This document shows positions 4,488 to 64,000 of a stretch of 64,000 nt of DNA, one piece after another; positions within the stretch are counted from its first letter, which is position 1; each line of letters opens with the position of its first letter. The stretch comes from Rhizobium bangladeshense (GTDB lineage Bacteria; Pseudomonadota; Alphaproteobacteria; Rhizobiales; Rhizobiaceae), in the NCBI RefSeq assembly GCF_017357245.1, contig NZ_CP071612.1, forward strand, positions 3,475,001-3,539,000. Reading direction: 5' to 3'. The translations under genes were made by a program, and so were the position numbers. The notes under the pieces are model-generated. The model was not told where the DNA came from and ran no database searches. It saw nothing but the letters and a program-made list of their open reading frames with translations.

Positions 4488-7400
4488 TTATTCCGCCGCT
4501 AGCCGTATAACCTCGGCCTCTTCCTCCTTGTGCTCGTCCGGCTTGTGCTGGATGAGCGGACGGTTGCCCGTCAGCCGCCGCAGCAGCACGTAGAAGACCG
4601 GCGTCATGAAGATGCCGAAGAAGGTCACGCCGATCATGCCGGAGAAGACCGCGACACCCATGGCCGCGCGCATTTCCGCGCCCGCACCGGTGGAAACGAC
4701 GAGCGGTACGACGCCCATGATAAAGGCCATGGAAGTCATGAGGATCGGGCGAAGGCGAAGGCGGCTGGCTTCGACCGCGGCCTCGCGCGGCGTCCGGCCC
4801 TCGAACTCCAGTTCGCGGGCAAATTCCACGATGAGGATCGCGTTCTTCGCCGATAGGCCGACAAGGACGACAAGGCCGATCTGTGTGAAGATGTTGTTGT
4901 CTCCACCGGTGAGCCAGACACCCGTCAGCGCTGCCAGCACGCCCATCGGCACGATCATGATGATCGCAAGCGGCAGCGTCAGGCTTTCATACTGGGCGGC
5001 CAGCACCAGGAAGACCAGCAGCAGGGCGAGCGGGAAGACGACGACGCTCGAGTTGCCGGCAAGGATCTGCTGATAGGTCAGATCCGTCCATTCGAAATCG
5101 ATGCCGGACGGCAGCGTCTCCCGAAGGATCTTCTCGATTGCCGCCTGTGCCTGACCGGACGAGAAGCCCGGCGCCGGACCGCCGTTGATATCGGCGGCGA
5201 GGAAGCCGTTATAGCGGTTCGCCCGCTCCGGGCCGGTGCTCGGCTCCACCTTCAGGAGGGCCGACAGCGGGATCATCTGGCCCGACGCCGATCGGACCTT
5301 CAACTGACCGATATCTTCCGGCTGGGCACGGAATTTCGCGTCGGCCTGCACACGGACGCTGTAGGTGCGGCCGAAGGCGTTGAAGTCGTTCACATAGAGC
5401 GAACCAAGATAGATCTGCAGCGTCTGGAAGACGTCGGTGACGGAAACTCCAAGCTGCTCGGCCTTGGCGCGGTCGAGATCGGCATAGAGCTGCGGCACGT
5501 TGATCTGGAAGCTGGAGAACAGGCCGGCAAGCTCCGGCGCCTGATAGGCCTTGGCAAGCACCGCCTTGGTAGCCTCGTCGAGCGCCTGGTTGCCGAGACC
5601 CGCACGATCCTCGATCTGCAGCTTGAAACCGCCCGTCGTGCCGAGGCCGTTGACCGGCGGCGGCGGGAACATGGCGATGAAGGCATCCTGGATGACGCCG
5701 AACTTCTGGTTCAGCGCCATCGCGATGGCGCCGCCGGAGAGATCAGGCGTCTTGCGCTCCTCGAAATCCTTCAGCGTCACGAAGACGATGCCGGCATTCG
5801 AGGAGTTGGTGAAGCCGTTGATCGACAGGCCAGGGAAGGCGATCGCATTTGCGACGCCCGGCTGCGCGAGCGCGATGTCGGTCATCCGCTTGATGACGTC
5901 TTCGGTGCGGTCGAGGCTTGCCGCATCCGGCAGCTGGGCGAAGCCGATCAGATACTGCTTGTCCTGGGACGGTACGAAGCCGCCCGGAACCGTGGTGAAC
6001 ATGCTGTACGTCGCGCCGACCAGCGCCAGGTAGACCACCATGACGATGCTCTTGCGCGACACCAGGCTGCCGACACCCTTGCCATAGGCATTCGAGCCTG
6101 CGCCGAAGACACGGTTGAAGCCGCGGAAGAACCAGCCGAAGATCGCGTCCATGAACCGCGTCAGCCAGTCCTTCGGCGCATGATGATCCTTCAGGAGAAG
6201 AGCTGCCAGCGCAGGCGACAGGGTGAGCGAGTTGAAGGCCGAGATGACGGTCGAGATCGCGATCGTCAGCGCGAACTGGCGATAGAACTGCCCGGAAAGG
6301 CCGGAGATGAAGGCGAGCGGCACGAAGACCGCGACGAGGACCAGCGCGATCGCAATGATCGGGCCTGAGACCTCCTTCATCGCCTTGTAGGTGGCGGCTC
6401 TTGGCGACAGCCCGTGTTCGATGTTGCGCTCGACATTCTCGACCACGACGATCGCGTCGTCGACGACGATACCAATCGCCAGCACCAGTCCGAACAGGCT
6501 GAGCGCGTTGATCGAGAAACCGAAGACATACATGACCGCAAAGGTGCCGATGATCGATACCGGAACGGCGATCAGCGGGATGATCGAGGCGCGCCATGTC
6601 TGCAAGAAGAGAATGACGACGAGGACGACGAGCGCGATGGCCTCGAGCAGCGTGTCGATGACCTTCTCGATCGAGGAGCGCACGAATTTCGTCGTATCGT
6701 AGACGATTTCGTATTTGACGCCCTCAGGCATGGCCAATTGCAGCTGATCCATGGTTGCGCGCACATTGTCGGCGATTTCGATCGCATTCGAACCGGGCGC
6801 CTGAAGGGCGGCCACGGCGACAGCCGGCTTGCCGTCGAGCAGCGACCGCAACGTGTAGTCGGCGGCGCCAAGCTCGATGCGGGCGACGTCGCGAAGGCGG
6901 GTAATCTCGCCATTGGCGCCCGTCTTGACGATGATGTTGCCGAACTCCTCAGGCGTGCGCAGGCGGCCCTGCGCATTCACGTTGAGCTGCAGGTCGACGC
7001 CCGGCTGGCTCGGCGACGCGCCGATGATGCCGGCAGCGGCCTGGACGTTCTGCGAACTGATGGCATTGCTGATATCGCTGGCGGCGAGATCATGCTCGGC
7101 CGCCTTCTGCGGATCGATCCAGACGCGCATCGAATAGTCGCCGGCGCCGAAGACCTGCACCTGACCGACGCCTGGGATGCGGGCGAGCCGGTCCTTGATG
7201 TTGAGGGTGGCGTAGTTGCGAAGATAGGTGATGTCGTGACTTTCGCCGTCGGAGACGAGATTGACGACCATGATGAAGTCGGGTGAGCTTTTCACCGTGG
7301 TGATGCCGAGCGCACGGACTTCCGCCGGCAGGCGCGGCTCGGCCTGCGAAACGCGGTTCTGCACCAGTTGCTGTGCCTTGTCGGGGTCGGTGCCCAGCTT

Positions 7401-7688
7401 GAAGGTGACGGTGACGTTAAGCACGCCGTCCGACGTCGCTTGGCTCGACATGTAAAGCATGTCCTCAACGCCGTTGATCTGCTCTTCGAGCGGTGTCGCC
7501 ACCGTTTCGGCAATGACGCTCGGATTGGCTCCGGGATAGGTGGCGCGCACGACGACCGACGGCGGCACGACGTTGGGATACTCGGAAATTGGCAGCGCCC
7601 GCAGGCCGATCAGGCCGGCAACAACGATGAGGACCGAAAGAACACCGGCAAAAACCGGCCGGTCGACAAAAAATCTGGAGATGTTCAT
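4488..7688 (-). CDS. RND multidrug efflux permease (AcrB/MexB-like, HAE1)
   Basis: Inner-membrane proton-driven pump of 1066 aa, the usual RND length. It begins with MNISRFFVDRPVFAGVLSV, the hallmark N-terminus. Two large periplasmic loops lie between helices 1-2 and 7-8. The proton-relay pair DD is present in GIVVDDAIVVVENVER (about residue 405), and the second-half motif AKNAILIVEFARE is present. It should form a tripartite pump with the adaptor at 7805-8995 and an outer-membrane TolC-like channel, for which no gene is adjacent. The start is supported by GGAGAGGG upstream. It is the last gene of a leftward run hydrolase-adaptor-permease, separated from the adaptor by 116 bp containing a hairpin. 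Confidence 0.93.
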   Translation of the reverse strand: MNISRFFVDRPVFAGVLSVLIVVAGLIGLRALPISEYPNVVPPSVVVRATYPGANPSVIAETVATPLEEQINGVEDMLYMSSQATSDGVLNVTVTFKLGTDPDKAQQLVQNRVSQAEPRLPAEVRALGITTVKSSPDFIMVVNLVSDGESHDITYLRNYATLNIKDRLARIPGVGQVQVFGAGDYSMRVWIDPQKAAEHDLAASDISNAISSQNVQAAAGIIGASPSQPGVDLQLNVNAQGRLRTPEEFGNIIVKTGANGEITRLRDVARIELGAADYTLRSLLDGKPAVAVAALQAPGSNAIEIADNVRATMDQLQLAMPEGVKYEIVYDTTKFVRSSIEKVIDTLLEAIALVVLVVILFLQTWRASIIPLIAVPVSIIGTFAVMYVFGFSINALSLFGLVLAIGIVVDDAIVVVENVERNIEHGLSPRAATYKAMKEVSGPIIAIALVLVAVFVPLAFISGLSGQFYRQFALTIAISTVISAFNSLTLSPALAALLLKDHHAPKDWLTRFMDAIFGWFFRGFNRVFGAGSNAYGKGVGSLVSRKSIVMVVYLALVGATYSMFTTVPGGFVPSQDKQYLIGFAQLPDAASLDRTEDVIKRMTDIALAQPGVANAIAFPGLSINGFTNSSNAGIVFVTLKDFEERKTPDLSGGAIAMALNQKFGVIQDAFIAMFPPPPVNGLGTTGGFKLQIEDRAGLGNQALDEATKAVLAKAYQAPELAGLFSSFQINVPQLYADLDRAKAEQLGVSVTDVFQTLQIYLGSLYVNDFNAFGRTYSVRVQADAKFRAQPEDIGQLKVRSASGQMIPLSALLKVEPSTGPERANRYNGFLAADINGGPAPGFSSGQAQAAIEKILRETLPSGIDFEWTDLTYQQILAGNSSVVVFPLALLLVFLVLAAQYESLTLPLAIIMIVPMGVLAALTGVWLTGGDNNIFTQIGLVVLVGLSAKNAILIVEFARELEFEGRTPREAAVEASRLRLRPILMTSMAFIMGVVPLVVSTGAGAEMRAAMGVAVFSGMIGVTFFGIFMTPVFYVLLRRLTGNRPLIQHKPDEHKEEEAEVIRLAAE

Positions 7689-7730
7689 ATCAAAGCCCTC
7701 TCCGGGGTGAACATGGATGCAAAATCCCTC

Positions 7731-7754
7731 GCCGGCGGGTGAGGCGCCGCCGGC
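7731..7754. other. hairpin between adaptor and permease genes
   Basis: GCCGGCGG and CCGCCGGC form a perfect 8-bp GC-rich stem around an 8-base loop inside the 116-bp gap between the RND adaptor stop and permease start. There is no T-run, so it is more likely an mRNA-processing or attenuation structure that sets the adaptor/permease ratio than a full terminator. This is inference from structure alone. Confidence 0.4.
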
Positions 7755-7804
7755 AGGTCATATCATTTCGAGTATCGGCCTTCCCTGCAGGGGAAGACCG
7801 GATC

Positions 7805-8995
7805 TTACTGAGCGGTGGCGACCTTCTCTTCCATCTGCGGCGCGACCACGGCGCCGGGACGGATGCGCTGCAGACCGTTGACGACGATCTTCTCGCCGGC
7901 CTTCAGGCCGCTTTCGACCACCCGCTGGCCGTCAGCCACAGTTCCGAGCTGCACCTGGCGGTAGGCGACCTTGTTCTCGCCGTCGACGACGAAGACGAAT
8001 TTCTTGTCCTGGTCGGTACCGACGGCGCGATCGCTGATGACGATCTTGTTCTCCGCCTTCGGCTGGCCCATGCGCACCCGCACGAACTGTCCGGGAATGA
8101 GCCGACCGCCCGGATTGTCGAAGACGGCGCGCACGCCGATCGTGCCGCTCGCCGCATCAACCTCGTTGTCGATCAACTGCAGCTTGCCTTTGATCGGCGT
8201 ACCGTCATCGGTCAGCGTGCCGATTTCGACAGGGATCTGCTCGACCGGAGGCAGGGCGCTATCGGTCTGCGGTAGCTGGGCAAGCGCCCGCGTCACCATC
8301 TCTTCGCTGGCGTTGAAGCTCGCATAGATCGGGTCGACCGAAACAAGCGTCGTCAGCGCCGGCGAGGCCGACCCGGCAGCAACGAGGTTGCCGGCTGTGA
8401 CCTCGATCTTGCCGATACGGCCCGACACGGGAGCGCGAACCTGGGTGTAATCGAGATCGAGCTGGGCCGACTGCAATGTGGCCTGCGCCGAACGTAGCCC
8501 GGCCTGCGCCTCGGCCAGCGCGCTCTGGCGCTGATCAAGATCGCTCTGGGAGATGGTGCGGTTGTCGGAAAGCCTGCGGCCGCGATCGAGTTCGGTCTGC
8601 GCCAGGCTGACCCTGGCTTCGGCCGAAGCGACCTGGCCTTGCGCCTGTGCCACGCTCGCCTGGTAGGGCGCCGGGTCGATCGTGAAGAGCAGATCGCCCT
8701 GTTTGACCAGGGCGCCTTCGCGGAATGCTACCGACAGGATGGCGCCGGCGACGCGGGAGCGCACCTGCACGCGATCGACCGCTTCAAGGCGACCGGAGAA
8801 ACTTTCCCAGGCCGTCACGTCGCGCGCTGCGACGACGGCTACCGTCACCGGCACCGCAGGAGCCTCCGCCGGGGCGGAAGCGGCAGTGGCAGCCGTGCTC
8901 ATAGGCAATTCAAAAAACAATGCCGCGCCGGAAACGGACGCAATAAGACCTAGGCCGGCACCCACCAGGGCCCAGCGTTTACTTCTGGACGTCAT
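7805..8995 (-). CDS. RND periplasmic adaptor (AcrA/MexA-like membrane fusion protein)
   Basis: Membrane-fusion protein of 396 aa linking the RND permease to the outer-membrane channel. An N-terminal membrane anchor (about residues 8-28) is followed by an Ala/Pro linker. Next come a barrel-sandwich half containing GALVKQGDLLFTIDPAPY, a coiled-coil hairpin rich in Ala/Gln/Glu (about 110-175) and the second lipoyl half with DYTQVRAPVSGRIGK. No lipobox cysteine is seen, so it is probably anchored by the helix. The start has AGGAG upstream. It lies 46 bp behind the hydrolase-like gene and precedes the permease, so it is probably in one operon with both, under the divergent LysR regulator. Confidence 0.92.
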   Translation of the reverse strand: MTSRSKRWALVGAGLGLIASVSGAALFFELPMSTAATAASAPAEAPAVPVTVAVVAARDVTAWESFSGRLEAVDRVQVRSRVAGAILSVAFREGALVKQGDLLFTIDPAPYQASVAQAQGQVASAEARVSLAQTELDRGRRLSDNRTISQSDLDQRQSALAEAQAGLRSAQATLQSAQLDLDYTQVRAPVSGRIGKIEVTAGNLVAAGSASPALTTLVSVDPIYASFNASEEMVTRALAQLPQTDSALPPVEQIPVEIGTLTDDGTPIKGKLQLIDNEVDAASGTIGVRAVFDNPGGRLIPGQFVRVRMGQPKAENKIVISDRAVGTDQDKKFVFVVDGENKVAYRQVQLGTVADGQRVVESGLKAGEKIVVNGLQRIRPGAVVAPQMEEKVATAQ

Positions 8996-9041
8996 CAGTA
9001 CTCTCCTTGCGGCCTCAAGCCGCCGAAATATCAGATCTTCT

Positions 9042-9896
9042 TCAATGCAATTGCGGTTGGACGCTTACGTCCTGAAGGAAACTCCCGAAATGGCGGCTGA
9101 CGTGTTCCTGCCAACCGGGCGTTTCCCCGGATTTCCCACCATAAATTAAAGGCCAGCCCATCCCGGCGGGAAGGACATGCTGGCGGACACCGACACCGGC
9201 CTTCTTCAGGCGGGCGCCGTAACCGATTGTTTCGTCGTGCAGAGGATCGTCCTCAGCGGTAAATATCAATGCCGGCGCGACGCCTGAAAGACGCGAACAG
9301 AGGCAAGGCGCCGCATAGGGATGGCAGCCGCCGCCGCTCAGGTAATGACTCCAGCCCTCGGTCCAACGCTGGCGCATGCCGATGGCTTCCGCCTTACGAA
9401 TGGAGGACGTGCCCATGAAGGGATCGAGCAGCGGCGAAATCAAAATCTGGCCGTCGAGCGCATCAGGCAACTGGTCCCGCGCCTTCAACGCCACACCGGC
9501 GGCGACGTTGCCGCCAGCCTCCTCACCGGCGACAAAAAGCAGCGACTTGCGGTCGCCAAGACCGGCAGCACGTTTGTTGGCGAGGTAGCTGAAAACCGAG
9601 AAGGAAACTTCCAATGCCTTCGGAAACATATTGCCGGACAGGCTGCTATAGTCGACGGCAGCGACGATCGCGCCGGCCTTGGCCAGGCTCATCGCCACCG
9701 GCCGGTCGACATTCGTCTCGCTGTCGAGAAACGCGCCGCCATGCAGGTAAAGCACGATCGGCTGCCCCTTGCCGTAATCGGCGCCCTGGTAGATACGTGC
9801 GGAAACGGGGCCGATGGCCACCTTGTCCAGCACCATATCTTTCCATTCCACCGACATGCTTCCGGTCTCTTTCCGCATTGGAGCAAACAGGCGCAT
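9042..9896 (-). CDS. alpha/beta-hydrolase (HSL-like) with catalytic residues lost
   Basis: A 284-aa protein of the hormone-sensitive-lipase-type alpha/beta-hydrolase fold. The oxyanion motif HGG (LYLHGGAF, about residue 52) is intact, and the acidic residue motif TAEDDPLHDE is present. However, the nucleophile elbow reads AGEEAGGN where the family has GDSAGG, so serine is replaced by glutamate. The usual histidine region reads LPAGMGWPL with no histidine. It is therefore unlikely to be an active esterase and may bind a ligand instead. It heads the leftward run with the RND adaptor and permease, and is divergent from a LysR regulator. Starts at 9878 or 9857 are also possible; the latter gives MSVEWKDM. 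Confidence 0.8.
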   Translation of the reverse strand: MRLFAPMRKETGSMSVEWKDMVLDKVAIGPVSARIYQGADYGKGQPIVLYLHGGAFLDSETNVDRPVAMSLAKAGAIVAAVDYSSLSGNMFPKALEVSFSVFSYLANKRAAGLGDRKSLLFVAGEEAGGNVAAGVALKARDQLPDALDGQILISPLLDPFMGTSSIRKAEAIGMRQRWTEGWSHYLSGGGCHPYAAPCLCSRLSGVAPALIFTAEDDPLHDETIGYGARLKKAGVGVRQHVLPAGMGWPLIYGGKSGETPGWQEHVSRHFGSFLQDVSVQPQLH

Positions 9897-9922
9897 CCGC
9901 CCCTTGCATTTTCCACAAAAAA

Positions 9923-9960
9923 GATATTGTTATTCAGCGGAAGGAATAAGAAGCAATATC
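9923..9960. promoter_or_regulatory. inverted repeat in LysR/hydrolase divergent promoter region
   Basis: GATATTG-TTATTC (9923-9935) is mirrored by GAATAA-GAAG-CAATATC (9944-9960), an interrupted dyad with a four-base bulge. It lies between the hydrolase start and the LysR start. LysR proteins usually bind imperfect dyads in exactly this position, so it is a candidate site for autoregulation and control of the efflux run. No binding evidence exists. Confidence 0.45.
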
Positions 9961-10020
9961 GCGATTACACTGTTCCAATTTTCGAATAATGGTGCAACGC
10001 AAACTGCGGACTTGAAACCG

Positions 10021-10932
10021 ATGGATCAGCTCTCGGCAATGCGCGTCTTCATCCGTGTGGTGGAGACGGGCAATTTCACCCGCGCCGCCGACATGCTCGC
10101 CATGCCCAAAGCGACGGTGACCAACCTCATTCAGGGCCTCGAAGCGCATCTGCGCACCAAGCTTCTGAACCGTACCACGCGCCGGGTCATGGTAACCACG
10201 GACGGCGCGCTTTATTATGAACGCGCCGCCCAGATCATCTCCGAACTGGAAGAACTCGATGGCAGCCTCTCCAACTCGCAAAGCCTGCCGAGCGGGCGGC
10301 TGCGTATCGAGATGAGCGGCGCCTTTGCTGACGCCATCGTCGTTCCGGCGCTTTGTGACTTCTACCAGCGCTATCCCGACATCCGCCTGGATCTGGGGGT
10401 CGGCGACCGCACGGTGGACTACCTGGTCGAAAACGTCGATTGCGCGCTACGGGCGGGCACGCCCACCGACCAATCGCTGATTGCCCGGCGGGTTTCGGAG
10501 ATGGAACTGATCACCTGCGCTTCGCCGAGCTACATTCAGAAATTCGGCATGCCCGAACGGCCGGAGGATTTGGAGGCCACGCACTACTCCGTCAATTATT
10601 TCCGCGCCCAAAACAACCGGACGCTGCCCTTCGAATTTCGCAGGGGCAACGAAATGGTCGAGACCACCCCGCGCTGCATCGCCTCGGTCAACGACAGCAG
10701 GACTTATCTGACCGCGGCCCTGACCGGGCTCGGCGTCGCGCAGGTGCCGACCTTCATGGCGCGTGAACCCATGCGGCGGGGCGAACTCATCCGCCTGCTG
10801 CCGGATTGGCGCCGCGATCCGGTTCCGCTCTATGTGGTCTATCCGCCGAACCGCCACCTCAGCAACAAGGTGCGCGTCTTCGTAGACTGGCTGGTGAAGC
10901 TTCTGGTCGAGGCCAGGCTGAACGATTTATAG
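10021..10932 (+). CDS. LysR-family transcriptional regulator
   Basis: DNA-binding regulator of 303 aa. The N-terminal winged helix-turn-helix spans about residues 1-60 (FTRAADMLAMPKATVTNLI then LEAHLRTKLLNRTTRRVM). The rest is a periplasmic-binding-like effector domain (about 90-295). It belongs to the CrgA/YafC-like group, given the C-terminus VRVFVDWLVKLL. The ATG at 10021 fits the domain start; a longer upstream frame to 9814 would add a non-homologous extension and is rejected. Its divergent placement next to the hydrolase-adaptor-permease run suggests that it controls that run and itself. The effector is unknown. Confidence 0.9.
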   Translation: MDQLSAMRVFIRVVETGNFTRAADMLAMPKATVTNLIQGLEAHLRTKLLNRTTRRVMVTTDGALYYERAAQIISELEELDGSLSNSQSLPSGRLRIEMSGAFADAIVVPALCDFYQRYPDIRLDLGVGDRTVDYLVENVDCALRAGTPTDQSLIARRVSEMELITCASPSYIQKFGMPERPEDLEATHYSVNYFRAQNNRTLPFEFRRGNEMVETTPRCIASVNDSRTYLTAALTGLGVAQVPTFMAREPMRRGELIRLLPDWRRDPVPLYVVYPPNRHLSNKVRVFVDWLVKLLVEARLNDL

Positions 10933-11011
10933 GGCATGCCGCAGCGGCAAACAGATACGGCCCGGAAGGCAGGGGAGACCTTCGACGGGCCGCAATATTT
11001 TGAACATCGGG

Positions 11012-11089
11012 CCTGTCGCGCCGCTGCATGGGCGCGGCAGGCTCTGGAGGCTCGCGAGAGAGCGTCAGGGAACTCCGCTCTCTCGCGAG
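11012..11089. terminator. two tandem strong hairpins after the LysR gene
   Basis: The first stem is CCTGTCGCGCC (11012-11022) with GGCGCGGCAGG (11031-11041), 11 pairs with one G-U. The second is CTCGCGAGAGAGCG (11051-11064) with CGCTCTCTCGCGAG (11076-11089), a perfect 14-bp stem with an 11-base loop. They lie 80-157 bp after the LysR stop. The second is followed by AAATTA rather than a T-run, so they may end the LysR transcript, stabilise its 3' end, or belong to an unannotated RNA. Confidence 0.45.
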
Positions 11090-11189
11090 AAATTACTTAT
11101 AAGCACTCTCCACAAGATTGTAAGAGGAAAAACCTACAAGCGTCGTTCACATAATCGCGGTGACGGCGCCTTCGTCAGATCGCACCGCC

Positions 11190-11776
<587 letters not shown>

Positions 11777-11826
11777 CGCCCATCCGAAAGCGTGACGCGG
11801 TTTCGGGGTGACGAGGGACGCGCGGG

Positions 11827-12444
11827 ATGTTATCTGCCTCGGCCATGACCGATGGTGGAATGACGAAGGGCGCGATCGGCGCCGGCGCGCTTGCCGGCGA
11901 AGGCCTCAGGACGTTTTTCGAGCGCGACGCGGTCACCGTGGCCCGCGACCTTCTGGGCTGCCATCTCGCAGTCGATGGCGCCGGCGGCCGGATCACCGAG
12001 ACCGAAGCCTATTTCCCCGATGATGAAGCCTCGCACAGTTTTCGTGGCCCGACCAAGCGCAACGGCGCCATGTTCGGCCGACCCGGCAATGTCTACATCT
12101 ACCGCATCTACGGCATGTACTGGTGCCTGAACTTCGTCTGCCATCCGGGCTCGGCGGTGCTGATCCGCGCACTTGAGCCGGAAACCGGAATTCCCGCCAT
12201 GATGGAGCGGCGCGGCACCGATATGCTGACGGCGCTCTGCAGCGGCCCGGGCAAGCTCTGCCAGGCCCTCGGCATTGACATCGAAGTCAATGACCGGCTG
12301 CTCGACCGCCCGCCCTATGCGCTAACGCCGTCTGCGCCGGTGCCCATTGTCTCGGGAAAACGCATCGGCATTACAAAAAATGCCGAGGCACCCTGGCGTT
12401 TCGGCATTCAGGGATCGCGTTATCTCAGCAAACCTTTTCGCTGA
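11827..12444 (+). CDS. mpg: DNA-3-methyladenine glycosylase (AAG/MPG type)
   Basis: Base-excision repair glycosylase of 205 aa that removes alkylated purines such as 3-methyladenine. It has the AAG-family core: RDLLGCHLAV, the catalytic-glutamate motif ITETEAYFPDDEASH (about residues 57-71), RNGAMFGRPGNVYIYRIYG and the C-terminal phrase RFGIQGSRYLSK. Length is typical for the bacterial enzyme. The first ATG at 11827 gives a slightly long N-terminus; ATG 11845 is an alternative. It ends at the base directly before the stop of the convergent MFS gene, with no gap. Confidence 0.9.
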   Translation: MLSASAMTDGGMTKGAIGAGALAGEGLRTFFERDAVTVARDLLGCHLAVDGAGGRITETEAYFPDDEASHSFRGPTKRNGAMFGRPGNVYIYRIYGMYWCLNFVCHPGSAVLIRALEPETGIPAMMERRGTDMLTALCSGPGKLCQALGIDIEVNDRLLDRPPYALTPSAPVPIVSGKRIGITKNAEAPWRFGIQGSRYLSKPFR

Positions 12445-13986
12445 TTATTCCATGACGGCGCTGTGATCGACGGCGGGCGCCGCCTTCGGCTTGCGCAGCA
12501 AAAGCACCAGCGGAATCACCGCAAGCGACATCAGCATCAAAAGCTTGAAATCGTCCATATAGGCGATGATCGTCGATTGAAGCGTGATGATCTCGTTAAG
12601 CGAGGCGCGTCCGGCAGCCGTCACAGGACTAAGCCCCTGCGCCGCCGCGGCGTTGAAGGCATGGTTGAACGGCGTCACATAGGCCGCGATCGATTCGTGA
12701 TTGCGCTGAGTATTCTCGACGATCAACGCCGAGACGATCGAAATGCCGACCGATGAGCCGATGTTTCGCGAAAGATTGTAGAGGCCGGTGCCATCGCCAC
12801 GCATCTGGGAGGGCAGCGTGGCGAAAGCGATCGTCGTCAGCGGCACGAAGAGGAAGCCCAGGCCGGCACCCTGGATGAAGCCGATCGAGACGATCGTCCA
12901 TTGCGAGACGTCGGGCGTCCAGCCCGTCATGTCGTACATCGCCCAGGCGGTGAGCCCGAGCCCCAGCACCAGCAGCCAACGCGTATCCACCTTGCCGATC
13001 AGCCGCCCGACGATGAACATGCAGAGCATGGTGCCGAGCCCGCGCGGCCCCATGACGATACCGGCGGTGATGACGGGATAGCCCATCAGGGTCTGCAGAT
13101 AAGGCGTCATCAGTGCCAGCGAGGCGAGATAGGTGATGCCGATCACGAAGATGAAGATCATGCTGATCGTGAAGTTCTGATCGAGAAACAGCTTCGGGTT
13201 GACGAAGGATTTCTCTGCGGTCAGCGTGTGCACGAGGAGCAGATAGAACGCCGCGGCGCAGACGATCGCTTCGAGCATGATCTCGCCTGATGAGAACCAG
13301 TCGAGCTGCTCGCCGCGGTCCAGGAAGAGCTGGAGCGAGGCGATGAACAGGCTCATCATACCGAAACCGAACCAGTCCAGCTTGGCGAGCAGATCCCTCT
13401 TCGTTTCCGAGACGAAGATGATGATGCCGGCAAAAGCGAGCGCCCCGATCGGCACGTTGATGTAGAACACCCAGCGCCAGCTGATATTGTCGGTCAGCCA
13501 ACCGCCGATGACGGGTCCGAGTACCGGCCCGACCATGACCGAGACGCCGAAGAGAGCCATCGCCGAGCCGCGCTCCTCGACGCTATAGATGTCGAGGAGG
13601 ATGCCCTGGGAAAGTGGCACCAGCGATGCGCCAAAAAGGCCCTGCATCAGGCGAAAGACGACGATCTGGTTCAGCGATTGCGCAAGACCGCAGAGGATGG
13701 AGGCGCCGACGAAGCCGGCAACGGCGACGAGCAGCACGCGCTTGCGACCGAACCTGGCGGCGAGGAAACCCGAGGGCGGCGTCATGATCGCCGCCGCGAC
13801 AATATAGGAGGTCAGGACCCAGTTGATCTGGTCGGCGGAAGCCGACACGCTGCCCTGGATATAGGGCAGCGCCACGTTGGCGATCGTCGTATCCAGCGCC
13901 TGCATGATGACGGCAAGAATGACGCAGGCCGTGATCGCGCCACGATTGGCGACCGGGTTCACCGGAGAGGGGGCAGCGTTAGTCAT
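12445..13986 (-). CDS. emrB: DHA2-family MFS drug exporter (EmrB-like)
   Basis: Proton-driven exporter of 513 aa with about 14 membrane helices. It carries the DHA2/antiporter motifs DTTIANVALPYIQGS (helix 1), GPVLGPVIGGWL (motif C) and WRWVFYINVPIG. It should work with the EmrA-like adaptor encoded just upstream and a TolC-like channel to expel hydrophobic compounds. The start is ATG at 13986, which overlaps the adaptor stop by 8 bases (translational coupling). A longer frame to 14061 would run inside the adaptor gene and is rejected. Its stop abuts the stop of the glycosylase gene. Confidence 0.9.
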   Translation of the reverse strand: MTNAAPSPVNPVANRGAITACVILAVIMQALDTTIANVALPYIQGSVSASADQINWVLTSYIVAAAIMTPPSGFLAARFGRKRVLLVAVAGFVGASILCGLAQSLNQIVVFRLMQGLFGASLVPLSQGILLDIYSVEERGSAMALFGVSVMVGPVLGPVIGGWLTDNISWRWVFYINVPIGALAFAGIIIFVSETKRDLLAKLDWFGFGMMSLFIASLQLFLDRGEQLDWFSSGEIMLEAIVCAAAFYLLLVHTLTAEKSFVNPKLFLDQNFTISMIFIFVIGITYLASLALMTPYLQTLMGYPVITAGIVMGPRGLGTMLCMFIVGRLIGKVDTRWLLVLGLGLTAWAMYDMTGWTPDVSQWTIVSIGFIQGAGLGFLFVPLTTIAFATLPSQMRGDGTGLYNLSRNIGSSVGISIVSALIVENTQRNHESIAAYVTPFNHAFNAAAAQGLSPVTAAGRASLNEIITLQSTIIAYMDDFKLLMLMSLAVIPLVLLLRKPKAAPAVDHSAVME

Positions 13987-57102: not shown

Positions 57103-57351
57103 CTGTGCCCCTTTCGGAAGTTTTGACGCAATCGCAAATCGCAAGCTTTTGCCGCCGACCATCTCAAGCATCATTGCCGGCTCAGGGACACGTGTCAGTG
57201 ACCACAGCTACATCAGGAATAATTTGAGGAGACTGCCCCTCTTCAGGACGAATACCTGACCATCGCTCCAATCGCCCCGTGCTGCCCGAGGCGACGCTCG
57301 ATGGTCGGAGACGAATGCAGGCGCTCGGGTAGCGAATTGGATGAGGAGACG

Positions 57352-59670
57352 ATGAAACATCTGGCCGCTCTATACTGTATCGTTCTCGCCTTTATCGGAT
57401 TGGGCTTGACGGGAGGCGGCGCTTTGCTGCTCAGCCTCGGCGGCTCGCCCTATTACGCAATCACAGGAATTGCCTACTTTGTAGCCGCAGTTCTGCTATG
57501 GCGCCGGAAGCCACTGGGCGCACTCCTTATCCTGCTTGTCGCCGTTTTCACTCTCCCCTGGGCAATATGGGAGTCTGGCACCAATTTCTGGGCGCTCTTC
57601 GCACGCCTGATGTCCCCCACCGCGGTGGCGGGATTTGCGCTTCTCTTTGCACCAGCGCGGTTGCCGACCGCCAACCGAAAGCTCTTCCATGGCGGCGCCC
57701 TGCTTGCGGCCATTCTGTTTGCGGCGGGCTTCAGCCTTGCTTTCACGCCGCATGAGGTGATCCGCCCCTCCGTCGACATTCCTGCCTACAAGACTGCCAA
57801 AGGCGACAATTCGCCCTCCGACTGGACATCGTATGGCCGCAGCACTGCGGGAGATCGCTATTCCCCATTCGATCAGATCAATCGCGGCAATGTTGCCAGG
57901 CTCGATCTTGCCTGGACATATCGCACCGGGAGAGGCGACGGCGTCGATCAGAACACGCCTTTGCAGATCGGCGATACGATCTACACTTGCACACCGACGG
58001 ATGTGATCGCAGCCCTTGATGCCGACACGGGAAAACCCCGCTGGACCTTCGATCCCAAGGCGTCGGCGCCCTATTGGCAGCGCTGCCGCGGCCTCGGCTA
58101 TTATAAGATGCCGGAGGAAAACCGGTCGCCCGACGGCCTATGCAATGAGCGCCTGATACAGACGACGATCGATGCGCGCCTCATCGCAATCGACAGCAAG
58201 ACCGGTGCACCGTGCACGGGCTTCGGTGACAACGGCACCGTTCAGCTCTCTCAGGGTATGGGTGAAATCAAGACGGGCTACTATTTCCAGACATCCGCTC
58301 CGCTGATTGCCCGTAACCTGATCGTCATCGGAGGCTGGGTGACCGACAACCAGGAGGTCGGCGAGCCTTCAGGCGTCATCCGCGCATTCAATGTGGTCAC
58401 TGGAGAGCTCGAATGGGCATGGGATCTCGGCAATCCTGCGATCACCAAGCTTCCGCCGGATGGTGAGACCTATACGCGCGCTACGCCCAATATGTGGACG
58501 ACAGCCGCCTTCGACGACAAGCTCGGCCTCATCTATGCTCCGCTCGGCAATACCACGCCGGATTATTACGGCGCCAATCGCCCGGCTTTCGCCGATCAGT
58601 ATAACGCGACATTGGTGGCGCTCGATGTGACGACTGGCCGGGAGAAGTGGAAATTCCAGACCGTGCATCACGATATCTGGGACTATGATCTGCCGGCCCA
58701 ACCGGTGCTGATCGACCTGCCGGACGACAATGGAGCCACAGTACCCGCTATCTTGCAGACCACCAAGCGTGGACAGCTTTTCCTGCTCAATCGCCAGACC
58801 GGCGTTCCCCTCGCCGAAGTTCAGGAGAAGCCGGTCCCGCAGACGGGAGGCGCGCCGGAAGAGAAACTGTCGCCGACGCAGCCTTATTCGGTCGGCATGC
58901 CAACGATCGGCGCGGAACGCGTGACGGAGCAGAGAGCCTGGGGGTTGACCATGTTCGATCAACTGGCCTGCCGCATCGCCTTTCGCAAGATGCGCTACGA
59001 TGGCGATTTCACCCCCATTGGCACGCATCCTGCAATTCAGCAGCCGGGAAATCTGGGCGGCCTCAATTGGGGTAGCGTCTCGGTCGACCTGCCCAACAAC
59101 CGCGTCTTCATGAACGATATCCGCGTACCCAGCATTTTCGCGCTCGTGCCGCGGGCCGATTACGTCGATTTCGCCCTCGTCACGACCGCGCACGGCCCCT
59201 CCGCCCCGCAGCGCGGCACGCCTTATGGCATGACGACCGAGAAATGGACGTCGAGACTGCGCATTCCCTGCACGCAACCGCCATGGGGCACGGTAACGGC
59301 ATTGGATCTGAACACACGCAAAATCGCATGGCAGGTGCCGGCCGGGACTGCCGAACAGCTCGGACCATTCAAGATCAAGATGAAATTACCCATGTCGATG
59401 GGCTTGCCGACCTATGCTGGCACATCGGCGACTGCGGGCGGTATCGTCTTCTTTGCCGGTTTCCAGGACTATTACATCCGCGCCTATGACGCCGAGAACG
59501 GCAACGAGCTTTGGAAATATCCTCTGCCGGTCGGCTCGAGCGCGACGCCAATGACCTACGTCTCACCAAAGACAGGCAAACAATATGTTCTGGTCTCGGT
59601 TGGCGGAGCAGCAAATTCGACTGAAGTCGGCGACTATGTGCTCGCCTTTTCCCTGAAAGACGGGGATTAG
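57352..59670 (+). CDS. gcd: membrane-bound PQQ-dependent glucose dehydrogenase
   Basis: Quinoprotein dehydrogenase of 772 aa. Five N-terminal helices (about 1-130) anchor it; the rest is a periplasmic eight-bladed propeller starting near DWTSYGRSTAGDRYSPFDQI. Other family marks are FQTVHHDIWDYDLPAQPVL, NLGGLNWGSVSVD and the C-terminal YVLVSVGGAANS. It oxidises glucose (possibly quinate or shikimate) to the lactone and feeds electrons to ubiquinone. Length fits Gcd (about 800 aa). Start 57352 follows GAGGAG. PQQ synthesis genes are not in the window. Divergent from the acyltransferase gene. Confidence 0.87.
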   Translation: MKHLAALYCIVLAFIGLGLTGGGALLLSLGGSPYYAITGIAYFVAAVLLWRRKPLGALLILLVAVFTLPWAIWESGTNFWALFARLMSPTAVAGFALLFAPARLPTANRKLFHGGALLAAILFAAGFSLAFTPHEVIRPSVDIPAYKTAKGDNSPSDWTSYGRSTAGDRYSPFDQINRGNVARLDLAWTYRTGRGDGVDQNTPLQIGDTIYTCTPTDVIAALDADTGKPRWTFDPKASAPYWQRCRGLGYYKMPEENRSPDGLCNERLIQTTIDARLIAIDSKTGAPCTGFGDNGTVQLSQGMGEIKTGYYFQTSAPLIARNLIVIGGWVTDNQEVGEPSGVIRAFNVVTGELEWAWDLGNPAITKLPPDGETYTRATPNMWTTAAFDDKLGLIYAPLGNTTPDYYGANRPAFADQYNATLVALDVTTGREKWKFQTVHHDIWDYDLPAQPVLIDLPDDNGATVPAILQTTKRGQLFLLNRQTGVPLAEVQEKPVPQTGGAPEEKLSPTQPYSVGMPTIGAERVTEQRAWGLTMFDQLACRIAFRKMRYDGDFTPIGTHPAIQQPGNLGGLNWGSVSVDLPNNRVFMNDIRVPSIFALVPRADYVDFALVTTAHGPSAPQRGTPYGMTTEKWTSRLRIPCTQPPWGTVTALDLNTRKIAWQVPAGTAEQLGPFKIKMKLPMSMGLPTYAGTSATAGGIVFFAGFQDYYIRAYDAENGNELWKYPLPVGSSATPMTYVSPKTGKQYVLVSVGGAANSTEVGDYVLAFSLKDGD

Positions 59671-60193
59671 TCGGCCGATCACACGAAGCCACATGACGCG
59701 ACTTGGTCGTGCCAGGAGCGATCCCGGGCATCTCAAGCATGTGGCTGATCCGCTTGCGAAGACTGTCCCTTAAGATCCCCTGCGACGAGCTATTGCCAGC
59801 GCGGCTTAACGCCAAGCCCCTGGCGGGCTTTGGAGGGAGTTTTTGAGAATCGGTTGCGGGGCCTGATAGCAGAGAGACTTGCAACTTCGGCCGGAACAGC
59901 CGGTGTTATTTGGAAGAAATTTCCCGCTACGCCGTAACAAAACGTCAGTACCGAAACCGGCTAAGCCCCATTTGCCTATGGAACAGTAAAATCGGTACGA
60001 CCCTGTCGAAAGCGCGCTTGGCAAGCGACCTTCGCCACATCCGGACCTACTCGATCTTACTCCGCCGATGACAATAATCTTGTGAAAAATCCGATATTAG
60101 GGCACGATTTATGAACGCAACGGAAGTTGCGGCGCAATCTTAAACCCGGCCGTCTCGGACCGAGTAACAGTTCGCGTCGGAGGGTCGGCGTCG
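59671..60193. other. intergenic region between gcd and the nuoJ-like gene
   Basis: No gene is supported in these 523 bases. The left part holds a terminator-like hairpin (59812-59833). The right part ends with GGAGGG at 60179-60184 that serves the nuoJ-like gene. A stretch near 60060-60110 is AT-richer and may be the promoter of the following operon, but I cannot define hexamers with confidence. Confidence 0.5.
59812..59833 (+). terminator. terminator-like hairpin downstream of gcd
   Basis: CCAAGCCC pairs with GGGCTT-TGG (one-base bulge) around a 5-base loop, followed a few bases later by a run of five T at 59840-59844. It lies about 140 bp after the gcd stop. The gap between stem and T-run makes it an imperfect intrinsic terminator. 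Confidence 0.35.
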
Positions 60194-60694
60194 ATGGATG
60201 AGGGGTTCTTTCTTCTGTTCGCTACAGTGTCCGTGGCCACCGCTCTGACGATGGTCCTGGCGCGGAACCCGGTTCACAGCGCATTGGCGCTGATGGCGTG
60301 TTTTCTAAATATCTCGGCAATCTTCGTCTTGCTTGAGGCGCCATTGCTCGCAGTGATCCAGATCTTCGTCTACGTAGGCGCGATCATGGTCCTGTTCGTG
60401 TTCGTGATCATGATGATCGATGTGCGCGAAGCGGTGTTGCAGCGGTTCTTGCCAGGCGGCAACCTCCCGGCTCTGGTACTGCTCGTCCTGCTCGGGGTCG
60501 AGATGCTCGTACTGGTGCTCTGGAGCGACCGCTTTTCGGTCATGGAGCCCGTCGCGATGAGCGGCGGCGATGACGTCAGGCAGCTTGGCACAGCACTTTT
60601 CGCCGAATATCTCCTGCCGTTTGAAACTGCCTCCGTAATCCTGCTGGCGGCCTTGGTCGGCGCCATCATGCTCGCGCGGAAGGAGCAGGGGTGA
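60194..60694 (+). CDS. NuoJ-like membrane subunit
   Basis: A 166-aa membrane protein with five predicted helices and the NuoJ hallmark [20 protein letters not shown] (about residues 56-75), whose tyrosine-glycine bend is the pi-bulge region of complex I. It should be part of an ion-translocating membrane module. The start has GGAGGG upstream. The stop overlaps the NuoK-like start by one base. No hydrophilic NADH-arm genes precede it, so it is not from the main nuo operon. Confidence 0.9.
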
Positions 60695-60996
60695 TGGTTC
60701 CGATCTGGTGGTATATAGTGCTCGGAGTGGTCCTGTTCGTGATCGGAGCGGCGGGCGTTCTGCTCAGGCGCAATATTCTCGTCGTACTGATGTCGCTGGA
60801 GCTGCTGCTCAACTCGGTCAACATCAATTTCATCGCTTTCGGGCGTTACCACGCCGATTTCCGCGGGCAGATCTTCGCGATCTTCGTCATTGCAATCACC
60901 GCGGCGGAAGTTGCCGTCGCCCTTGGTATTCTGGTTGCCCTCGTTCGGAACAAATCCACCCTCAAGATCGACGACGTGACGGTGATGAAAGGATAA
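60694..60996 (+). CDS. NuoK-like membrane subunit
   Basis: A 100-aa protein with three helices, NuoK/MrpC type. Both conserved membrane glutamates are present: E36 in [15 protein letters not shown] and E72 in [11 protein letters not shown], the same numbers as in E. coli NuoK. ATG 60694 overlaps the NuoJ-like stop (TGATG); a GTG one codon earlier is less likely. AGGAG lies upstream. With intact glutamates it should take part in proton movement. Confidence 0.92.
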
Positions 60997-61001
60997 CGGC
61001 C

Positions 61002-62465
61002 TTGGACCCGGTTGTATCGATCCGGCCGTTGCTTGCCATCGCCGTCGCCGGTCTGGCGGCCCTTGCAGTTCTCCTTTTGAATAAGCGCAAGAGACTTCGC
61101 GATCTGGTCTCGCCATTGGCCGCGATCGCCATGTTCGCGATTGTCTTGTCGATGGCGCCCACGGTGCTGGCGGGCGGGACGGTCGAATTGCGCCTGTTCG
61201 AGTTTCTGCCGGGGATCGACTTTGCTCTCCGTGTCGATGCGCTCGGCATGGTGTTTGCCACCGTCTCGTCGCTGCTGTGGATCGTGGCGGCGATCTATTC
61301 CATCGGCTATATGCGGCATTTGAACGAGCATGCGCAGACCCGGTTCTTCGCCTGCTTCGCCAGCAGTCTTGCGGCCGCCGCCGGGGGCGCGTTCGCCGCC
61401 AATCTGTTTACGCTGGTGATCTTCTACGAAGTGCTCAGTCTAGTTACCTATCCGCTCGTCTACCACCACGAGGACGAGAAGGGATGGGGGGGCGGCCGCA
61501 AGTACCTCGTCTATCTGATGGGCGCCTCGAAAAGCGCGCTACTCGCCGCACTGGCGCTGACCTACCATATTGCGGGGTCGCTCGACTTTGTCGCGGGGGG
61601 GCTGCTGGCGGGGAGTGATGCCTCGGCGGCGCTGCTGACGGTCGTCTATTTCTGCTATCTTTTCGGCTTCGCCAAGGCCGCTGTAATGCCGATGCACGCC
61701 TGGCTGCCCGCCGCGATGGTCGCGCCGACACCGGTCAGCGCGCTTTTGCATGCAGTGGCAGTGGTCAAGATGGGCGTGTTCTGCGTGCTGCGAGTGGTGT
61801 TCCATGTCTTCGGCACAGGGCTGCTGGGTGGGCTGAGCCTGGGCATCGCCACGGCCTATCTGGCTTCGTTCACGATCCTGATGGCGTCGATTTACGCCCT
61901 GACGCGGGACGACCTGAAGGCCAGGCTCGCCTATTCGACGGTCAGCCAGCTCTCCTACATCGTGCTGGGCGCGGTTCTATTGTCGCCGGTCGCGATGGTC
62001 GGCGGGATCATCCACATCGCAGCGCACGCATTCTCAAAGATCACGCTCTTTTTTTGCGCCGGCTCGATCTATTGCGCGTCGGGCAAGCGAAACATCAGCG
62101 ACATGGCCGGTATCGGCCGCAGGCTGCCCTGGACGATGGGGGCATTTTTCATCGCTTCGCTCAGCATGATCGGGATACCGCCGACCGCGGGCTTCGTCAG
62201 CAAGTGGTATCTGGCGGAGGGCGCCGTGGCGGCGGGAGAGACCACGTTCCTGGTCGTAATCCTTGTGAGCTCGGTCCTGAACGCCGCATATTTCCTGCCA
62301 GTCAGCTATGCCGCCTTCTTCCAGGCGGAGAGGCAGGAGAGCCGGACGACGGTCCGTGAAATTCCGCTGGTCACGATTCCGCTGGTCGCGACGGCGATCC
62401 TGTCGGTGCTGATGGGCATTTTCCCCGGCTATTTTCTCACCCTGGCAGACGGAGTGATCCGATGA
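61002..62465 (+). CDS. antiporter-like proton-conducting subunit (NuoL/MrpD type)
   Basis: A 487-aa membrane protein with about 14 helices of the complex-I/Mrp antiporter family. Functional residues are present: the TM5 glutamate E143 in VIFYEVLSL and the TM7 lysine K225 in FGFAKAAVMPMHAWLP, with LLHAVAVVKMGVF following. Start is a TTG at 61002 with AAAGGA 8 bases upstream; the open frame continues upstream through the NuoK-like gene but out of its phase and without homology. It lacks the long lateral helix of true NuoL. Its stop overlaps the next gene by 4 bases. Confidence 0.9.
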   Translation: MDPVVSIRPLLAIAVAGLAALAVLLLNKRKRLRDLVSPLAAIAMFAIVLSMAPTVLAGGTVELRLFEFLPGIDFALRVDALGMVFATVSSLLWIVAAIYSIGYMRHLNEHAQTRFFACFASSLAAAAGGAFAANLFTLVIFYEVLSLVTYPLVYHHEDEKGWGGGRKYLVYLMGASKSALLAALALTYHIAGSLDFVAGGLLAGSDASAALLTVVYFCYLFGFAKAAVMPMHAWLPAAMVAPTPVSALLHAVAVVKMGVFCVLRVVFHVFGTGLLGGLSLGIATAYLASFTILMASIYALTRDDLKARLAYSTVSQLSYIVLGAVLLSPVAMVGGIIHIAAHAFSKITLFFCAGSIYCASGKRNISDMAGIGRRLPWTMGAFFIASLSMIGIPPTAGFVSKWYLAEGAVAAGETTFLVVILVSSVLNAAYFLPVSYAAFFQAERQESRTTVREIPLVTIPLVATAILSVLMGIFPGYFLTLADGVIR

Positions 62466-62716
62466 TCAAGCGTGTCGTCGACTTCTTTGGTGACGAGCAA
62501 TATGCGAGGCCGCGCCGCCGACTGTTCTACCTCGTGCTCGTCCTGATCGTCGTCGCCGACTTTCTGGTCATCCGCGAACACGCCGAATATCTGTGGGACA
62601 GCCTGCCGGGCTGGTCGGCGGTCTACGGCTTCGTCTCCTGCGTCCTGCTTATCTTCGTTTCCAAGTTTCTCGGCCACCGGGTCGGGCTGATGCGGCGCGA
62701 GGACTATTATGACTGA
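62462..62716 (+). CDS. small two-helix membrane protein of the Nuo/Mrp-like operon
   Basis: An 84-aa protein with a basic N-terminus, a first helix (about 20-37), a second helix (about 53-68) and a charged tail (MRREDYYD). I do not recognise a named family. It overlaps the preceding antiporter-like gene by 4 bp and the following one by 8 bp, so it is almost certainly translated as part of the complex. A small accessory or assembly subunit is the likely role. Confidence 0.8.
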   Translation: MIKRVVDFFGDEQYARPRRRLFYLVLVLIVVADFLVIREHAEYLWDSLPGWSAVYGFVSCVLLIFVSKFLGHRVGLMRREDYYD

Positions 62717-64000
62717 CTTCATCCATCCGGCTCTGCTCTTTATTCTTGGCGCCCTGCCGATCCCGTTCCTCAGCGGGTCGGTCCGCAAGGCCTATCTGCT
62801 TCTGATCCCTACACTGGCGATCCTGGCCGTGCTTGCGATGGAACCGGGCAGCTATGGCGAAGCGCGGTTCATTGGACAGGAGATCTTGATCGCGAAGGTG
62901 GACAAGCTCAGCATAGTCTTCGCCAGCGTTTTCACCATCATGGCGCTGATCGGAATGGTCTATGCGCTGCACCTGGCGGATGCCGGCCAGCACGTGGCGG
63001 CATTCGTCTATGTCGGCAGCGCGCTTGGTGTGGTGTTTGCCGGTGACTACCTGACCCTCTACCTGTTCTGGGAGGGCATGGCATTCGCTTCCGCCTATCT
63101 GGTCTTCGCGCAGCGTGGTGGGCCGGCGATCCGGGCCGGATTCCGCTACCTCATGGTCCATATCACGGGTGGCGTCATTCTGCTCGGCGGCATCATTTCC
63201 CACGGGCTCGCCACCGGTTCACTGCTTTTCGGCCCGATCGCGGGGGCCCTCACCAACGGAGGGATGGGGGTCGGCGACTACCTGATCCTCGCCGGCTTCA
63301 TCCTCAACGCGGCCGTGCCGCCGCTCAATGCCTGGCTGACCGATGCCTACCCGGAGGCGACCGTCACCGGGGCGGTCTTCATGAGCGCGTTTACCACCAA
63401 GACCGCCGTCTATGTGCTGGCGCGTGCGTTTCCGGGGACCGAGCTCCTTGTCTGGCTTGGCACCATCATGGCGCTCTACGGCGTCATCTACGCAGTGCTG
63501 GAGAACGATTGCCGACGGCTTCTCGCCTATCACATCGTCAGCCAAGTGGGCTATATGATCGCGGGTATCGGCATCGGGACCGAGATGGCGGTGAACGGAG
63601 CCGCCAGCCACGCCTTCGCGCATATCCTCTACAAGGCGCTGCTGTTCATGGGTGCCGGTGCAGTCATCTACGTCACCGGGCGACGCAGGCTCACCGAGCT
63701 CGGCGGGCTTTACAAGACCATGCCGCTGACCGTGGCGCTTTACATGGTAGGCGCTTTCGCGATCTCGGCCTTCCCGTTCTTCTCGGGGTTCGTCACCAAA
63801 TCGATGGTGATAGCGGCTGCAGGAGCGGATCACCGCGCACTGGTGGTGCTGGCGCTGACCATGGCATCGTCCGGGACGTTCCTGCACACTGGCCTCAAGC
63901 TTCCCTATTACATGTTCTTCGGAACGGACCGGAAACTGGAGGCGCGGGAGCCGCCGCGCAACATGCTGATTGCCATGGGCATGGCGGCGGTGCTCTGCAT
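62709..64000 (+). CDS. antiporter-like subunit (MrpD/NuoN type), truncated by window end
   Basis: The frame is open from ATG 62709 to the window end (430 codons), so the C-terminus is missing. It has about 12 helices so far. The TM5 glutamate E122 in LYLFWEGMAFASAY is present. At the TM7 lysine position it reads GFILNAAVPPLNAWL (N200), and a lysine occurs later in SAFTTKTAVYVLARAF. I recall this PEATVTGAVFMSAFTTKTAVY pattern from proteins annotated as Na+/H+ antiporter subunit D in alphaproteobacteria. It overlaps the 84-aa gene by 8 bp. More subunits probably follow beyond the window. Confidence 0.88.
   Translation, partial: MTDFIHPALLFILGALPIPFLSGSVRKAYLLLIPTLAILAVLAMEPGSYGEARFIGQEILIAKVDKLSIVFASVFTIMALIGMVYALHLADAGQHVAAFVYVGSALGVVFAGDYLTLYLFWEGMAFASAYLVFAQRGGPAIRAGFRYLMVHITGGVILLGGIISHGLATGSLLFGPIAGALTNGGMGVGDYLILAGFILNAAVPPLNAWLTDAYPEATVTGAVFMSAFTTKTAVYVLARAFPGTELLVWLGTIMALYGVIYAVLENDCRRLLAYHIVSQVGYMIAGIGIGTEMAVNGAASHAFAHILYKALLFMGAGAVIYVTGRRRLTELGGLYKTMPLTVALYMVGAFAISAFPFFSGFVTKSMVIAAAGADHRALVVLALTMASSGTFLHTGLKLPYYMFFGTDRKLEAREPPRNMLIAMGMAAVLC

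Follow-up and report, generated by a model that had tools for sequence, protein, structure and literature searches.

Five overlapping membrane genes at the end of a 64,000-nucleotide stretch of the Rhizobium bangladeshense genome raise the question of whether they encode an ion pump that works without an NADH (reduced nicotinamide adenine dinucleotide) arm or form part of a larger enzyme. The stretch, hereafter the window, spans positions 3475001-3539000 of contig C1 of the 6.35 Mb genome, and the genes occupy its positions 60194-64000 on the forward strand. An initial annotation, made from the window sequence, described a membrane module without a NADH arm, either a group 4 hydrogenase-related (Ehr-type) complex or a novel ion pump whose partner enzyme was unknown. 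The arm only seems absent because the operon continues beyond the window edge. With a probability of about 0.93, the locus encodes a complete second complex I (NADH:quinone oxidoreductase), known as the rhizobial 'green complex I', where NuoL is replaced by two MrpD-like subunits (here D1 and D2). This removes the false lead of an arm-less pump and ties the module to an enzyme that has been described.

The window edge cuts a complete complex I operon

Past D2, Pfam and NCBIfam matches identified nuoM, nuoN, nuoA, nuoB, nuoC, nuoD, nuoE, nuoF and nuoG on the same strand, with nuoE, nuoF and nuoG ∼10-14 kb downstream of nuoJ. Family matches further identified nuoH, nuoI and a gene with two CBS domains on the reverse strand, convergent to nuoG (window-equivalent positions 74650-76714). 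Every complex I subunit family except NuoL was present, plus two MrpD-like proteins; no NuoL-family gene was found in the cluster, which carries D1 and D2 instead. The description of the module as lacking a NADH arm is true inside the window only.

Ehr-type complexes are defined by having no NADH-reacting module (NuoE/F/G). An assignment to this group, or to another complex without NADH input, is suggested by the Mrp-like antiporter subunits and by the lack of hydrophilic-arm genes upstream of them within the window, but nuoE, nuoF and nuoG lie downstream. The initial annotation had also proposed a check of the NuoD-like protein for the CxxC nickel ligands, and these were found neither in the query nor in any of 76 rhizobial NuoD rows (the rhizobial rows counted here come from the best 80 of 178 loci encoding a D2 relative, obtained by a scan of genome contigs). 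The Ehr or hydrogenase reading was ruled out by the NADH arm together with the NuoD without CxxC, and we consider it extremely improbable. Reading past position 64000, as the initial annotation had proposed, gave NuoM, NuoN and NuoA-G with the convergent NuoI and NuoH.

The titles of the best 80 loci were all from Rhizobiales, the nearest among these being R. aethiopicum (98-99%). The order J-K-D1-84aa-D2-M-N-A-B-C-D-E-F-G was observed in 70 of the 80, one locus lacked only the K match and nine were shorter; the arrangement is therefore not due to chance. A plasmid of Ensifer canadensis is annotated with the same whole arrangement, including the CBS gene, nuoI and nuoH reversed after nuoG, and 99 plasmid records, 67 of them from Sinorhizobium, carry the gene for the 84-amino-acid protein. 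Two more distant Alphaproteobacteria (G181 and G354) likewise carry D1-84aa-D2 between K and M; G354 has H-I-J-K side by side on a single strand, and the stretch read in G181 starts near K. The CBS-nuoI end of the convergent set was also seen in a further genome (G355). At E 1e-25 the family of the CBS gene turned up in 70 of 385 genomes, too commonly for it to carry much weight as a marker.

Within the window, nuoJ (60194..60694, 166 amino acids, ATG start and TGA stop) matched Oxidored_q3 in Pfam at 1.2e-38, and nuoK (60691..60996, 101 amino acids, GTG start) matched Oxidored_q2 at 1.3e-29 and NF004320 (NuoK) with 110 bits against a cut-off of 57. D1, the first MrpD-like antiporter subunit, lies at 61002..62465 (Proton_antipo_M, 8.1e-51; NF006236, 827 bits, cut-off 663), with an uncertain start codon for which the TTG 5 bp past nuoK was assumed. 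It is followed by a gene for an 84-amino-acid membrane protein with two transmembrane helices (TM) at 62462..62716, which matched no Pfam or NCBIfam family. The second MrpD-like subunit, D2 (591 amino acids; NF009310, 783 bits, cut-off 564; Proton_antipo_M, 1.8e-43), starts at 62709 and is open at the window edge at 64000, its end corresponding to window-equivalent position 64484. All five genes are on the forward strand. That they are real, as first annotated, is borne out by their open reading frames, the Pfam matches and the gene order in the rhizobial loci. The NuoK glutamates reported as intact are conserved in 77/78 and 78/78 rhizobial rows, and the antiporter residues E143/K225 are kept in D1 in 78/78 rows (E140/K222 in the shorter D1 that was used). 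The view of the module as a complex I/Mrp hybrid with an unusual gene order also stands.

Comparison with described complexes I

The same genome carries a canonical nuoA-N operon, including an ordinary NuoL, at ∼1.65 Mb of C1. Blastp identity between green and canonical subunits (A-K, M and N pairs) ranged from 30% (G) to 55% (B), and the seven Proton_antipo_M matches in the genome comprised three canonical and four green proteins. All other subunits are common to the two enzymes, whereas the green copy has no NuoL, has two MrpD-like proteins with the 84-amino-acid protein, carries an extra cluster motif in NuoG, and is arranged as J-K-D1-x-D2-M-N-A-G with H-I convergent. The single NuoL in standard order that characterises canonical Nuo14 is absent from the cluster, as is the second NuoM beside NuoL of the 2M complex I of Nitrospira, since the cluster has one NuoM and no NuoL. 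As is characteristic of green complex I, the locus forms a second operon of rearranged order in addition to a standard NUO14.

Green complex I has been described as having NuoL replaced by two MrpD-like subunits (PMC9040806), as a second rearranged operon beside NUO14 in ∼70 Alphaproteobacteria with reported up-regulation in symbiosis (PMC7415380), and as having an additional 4Fe4S in NuoG, according to a figure legend (PMC4967309). These three features and the occurrence in Rhizobium and Sinorhizobium are shared with the present locus. The two-cluster Cys motif was found in the query NuoG and in 71/71 rhizobial NuoG rows, and it is absent from the canonical NuoG of the same genome. The rhizobial green complex I is a system already described, and nothing was found to set the present copy apart from the group. 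In Complex_I_3 of Candidatus Manganitrophaceae, by contrast, NuoM is present twice and MrpD2 is extended by a further insert of 26 residues relative to rhizobia (PMC9040806).

NifH and NodA were found on contig 4, and the green operon on contig 1. Because of the former pair, the host looks like a nodulating nitrogen fixer; reviews link green complex I to efficient nitrogen fixation.

D1 and D2 resemble subunits of stand-alone Mrp operons

At class level, 87 of 385 genomes had a match to the D2 family NF009310 that passed the cut-off; at the level of the taxonomic family, 10 of 81 did. Twenty D2 regions were read, three of which were of the green type and 17 had no NuoM after D2; in the latter, an MrpD-like gene and D1 were followed by D2, mostly with a two-TM gene in between. 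Pfam matches in one stand-alone operon (L125) gave MnhE, MrpF, MrpG, MbhD/E, MnhB and MrpC, and parts of two further loci (L128 and L137) gave MrpC and MbhD/E. The stand-alone alphaproteobacterial operons (MnhE-MrpF-MrpG-MbhD/E-MnhB-MrpC-D0-D1-2TM-D2) share with the green operon D1 (∼50% identity), the two-TM protein and D2 (41-60%) in the same order. They differ in that no Nuo genes stand beside D2, which has no 19-residue insertion (see below) and carries Lys in 63 and Asn in 23 of 86 rows at a position in TM7.

In L128 (9062-10387) and L137 (1256-2593), both stand-alone Mrp loci with an Asn-type D2, a frame of 442-446 amino acids follows or overlaps the end of D2; these frames matched no Pfam or NCBIfam family.

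The initial annotation had suggested trees of its two antiporter-like proteins. In a 46-row antiporter tree, built by a quick method, green D1 grouped with Mrp D1 (support 99) and green D2 with Mrp D2 (100), while green M and N grouped with NuoM and NuoN; the program gave long-branch warnings for this tree. A 103-row D2 tree, from which TM7 and the C-terminal part were excluded and whose root was chosen and not proven, placed 17 complex-I rows in one group (99) adjoining a stand-alone Mrp D2 (G205). The trees suggest that green D2 groups inside the D2 of alphaproteobacterial stand-alone Mrp operons with the order D1-2TM-D2.

The 84-amino-acid protein was considered as a complex-I-specific helix extension, which was not supported as stand-alone Mrp loci also carry the protein between D1 and D2. 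The search returned 292 homologues (the best 120 of 292 are shown), and no relative of solved structure was found.

Since other Alphaproteobacteria carry D1, the two-TM protein and D2 together in stand-alone Mrp operons, the trio could also be a separate Mrp-type cation/proton antiporter that is only co-transcribed with complex I. However, a search of the genome at E 1e-3 gave no match to MnhE (PF01899), MnhG (PF03334) or MnhB (PF04039) (MrpF was not searched), and D1-D2 are therefore without stand-alone Mrp partners. The operon also contains no other NuoL candidate, and the D2 insertion was confined to the rows with a complex-I context. The separate antiporter was rejected on the missing MnhE, MnhG and MnhB, and is in our view very unlikely.

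The lateral helix region of D2 is lengthened

For residue counts, 90 D2 places from the 385 class genomes were used, made up of 30 loci (including the one in this genome) and 60 more. Three genomes (G030, G041 and G057; all Lys, no NuoM) and some weaker places were left out. Among the 86 non-complex-I rows, eight end within 700 bases of D2, where a NuoM is not excludable.

Between a conserved Trp that follows TM15 and the Arg before TM16, the span measured 71 residues in 84/84 complex-I D2 rows. In stand-alone Mrp D2 it was 52 residues in 51/63 Lys rows and 19/23 Asn rows, and no row exceeded 60; some of the short values (0, 15, 39 and 41) are probably fragments or poor alignments. In canonical NuoL the span was 51 in 29/32 rows, with the copy of this genome counted twice, and 46 in E. 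coli. An insertion of 19 residues in the lateral-helix region was thus present in 84/84 complex-I contexts, and none of the 86 other rows was that long. AlphaFold modelled the stand-alone D2 region as one helix (486-530, low confidence) and that of green D2 as two (489-532 and 539-555). The 26-residue insert of Manganitrophaceae D2, absent from rhizobial D2 (PMC9040806), concerns another comparison, with which the 19-residue insertion does not conflict. In the E. coli lateral helix, insertions of six to seven residues between L and M are reported to have lowered pumping (PMC3274701).

The TM7 residue of D2 and pumping stoichiometry

Alignment of E. coli NuoL with green D2, including HMMER alignments, paired E144 with Glu122, K229 with Asn200, K342 with Lys309 and K399 with Lys364. 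The TM5 Glu is encoded at position 63072 and the TM7 Asn that replaces the Lys at 63306, both on the forward strand. D1 has E, K, K and K at the four positions, each in 78/78 rows. The pair of TM5 Glu and TM7 Lys is intact in D1, M and N, and in D2 Glu stands with Asn. At residue 207 of D2, which corresponds to NuoL Q236, NuoM H241 and NuoN H224 of E. coli, Asn was also observed in four aligned green D2 and His in a stand-alone locus (L099).

The TM7 Asn was found in 80/80 rhizobial rows and in 84/84 complex-I contexts, and, as noted above, also in part of the non-complex-I rows. A Lys-to-Asn change after capture by complex I was rejected, as Asn occurs in 23/86 other rows and the 103-row tree needs one change, located outside the complex-I clade. 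The change is apparently older than the capture.

The Glu-Lys pair has been described as modulating the proton barrier, which Glu-to-Gln mimics of pair opening lower, and its TM7 lysine as a switch between subunits (PMC11496545). As D2 is without this lysine, the equation of a fourth antiporter-like subunit with a fifth pumped proton is questioned. Within the green complex I reading, D2 may be a full fourth pump, so that five protons (or ions) would be moved for each NADH, a stoichiometry suggested for such enzymes in PMC9040806. This finds support in the TM5 Glu, a TM8 Lys and the lysines at the K342 and K399 positions, all kept in 80/80 rows, and in the conservation of the Asn form in stand-alone Mrp operons, which suggests that this form is probably functional; against it stands the Asn in place of the TM7 Lys in every complex-I context. 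We give the full pump somewhat less than an even chance. With Asn, D2 might instead conduct more freely, carry Na+ or be blocked. Another possibility, tentative and rather unlikely in our estimate, is that the captured D2 has a permanently unpaired TM5 Glu and a lengthened helix over D1 and M (possibly N), and is not gated like the others. The enzyme would then have four antiporter-like subunits and move ∼four ions per NADH, or D2 would be a regulated leak or Na+ path, and the helix lengths 52, 71 and 71+26 (the last from PMC9040806) would form a ruler for two, three and four subunits.

In the predicted mechanism of green complex I, NADH electrons would be taken up by NuoE/F/G and passed on to quinone by way of NuoB/D, as their families suggest. 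Quinone reduction would then drive a membrane arm with the presumed order H/A/J/K - N - M - D1 - D2, in which D1, D2 and the two-TM protein encoded between them would take NuoL's place and resemble the unit of a stand-alone Mrp antiporter. D2 at the arm end would carry the lateral helix, lengthened by 19 residues on joining complex I. Three half-channels with normal gating (Glu-Lys in D1, M and N) and a fourth with an altered gate (Glu-Asn in D2) are predicted.

The D2 insertion and the absent TM7 lysine offer residue-level handles on whether extra antiporter-like subunits add pumped ions; if the Asn-form D2 does not pump, the stoichiometries proposed for such complexes need revision. The D1-2TM-D2 unit of Mrp operons, the 19-residue insertion and the TM7 Asn do not appear in the cited papers' passages on green complex I, and may already be in print.

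Regulation and points of caution

Control of nuoJ by FixK, NifA or sigma54 was rejected on largely negative site scans. The window held no FixK site with up to 1 mismatch. In 79 upstream regions, exact FixK sites numbered 0 and sites with up to 2 mismatches 9; TTGA-N6-TCAA occurred once, NifA-type sites six times and sigma54 sites not at all.

Several points weigh against the interpretation given here. The reported symbiotic induction does not appear to be explained by a simple FixK site upstream of nuoJ. The deep branches of the 46-row tree are long and were flagged by the program. Measured from TM15, the span is 91 residues in green D2, 84 in NuoL (29/32) and mostly 72-75 in stand-alone D2; the gain over NuoL is only 7 residues, and a full reach over a third subunit is therefore not shown. 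The AlphaFold model of green D2 has a predicted local distance difference test (pLDDT) score below 50 over the whole C-terminal part beginning at residue 479, so that the lateral helix is not verified structurally and no structural claim is made. The model for green complex I as a whole is a prediction from sequence.

Upstream region and neighbouring genes

A conserved promoter-like block, CTTGTGAAAAA ... GGGCACGATTT, lies at 60079..60110 on the forward strand, ∼94-115 nt before the nuoJ ATG. Its conservation was seen in an alignment of 12 rhizobial upstream regions, and its function as a promoter is putative.

Past the window, the stretch L010 holds at 6988-12660 a frame of 1890 amino acids with a pseudouridine synthase domain at its end, with open frames of 1685 and 1802 amino acids on the opposite strand. 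Directly upstream of the operon, a gene at 57301-59670 encodes a 789-amino-acid dehydrogenase dependent on pyrroloquinoline quinone (PF01011, 8.8e-217), with a match upstream in 4 of 80 rhizobial loci.

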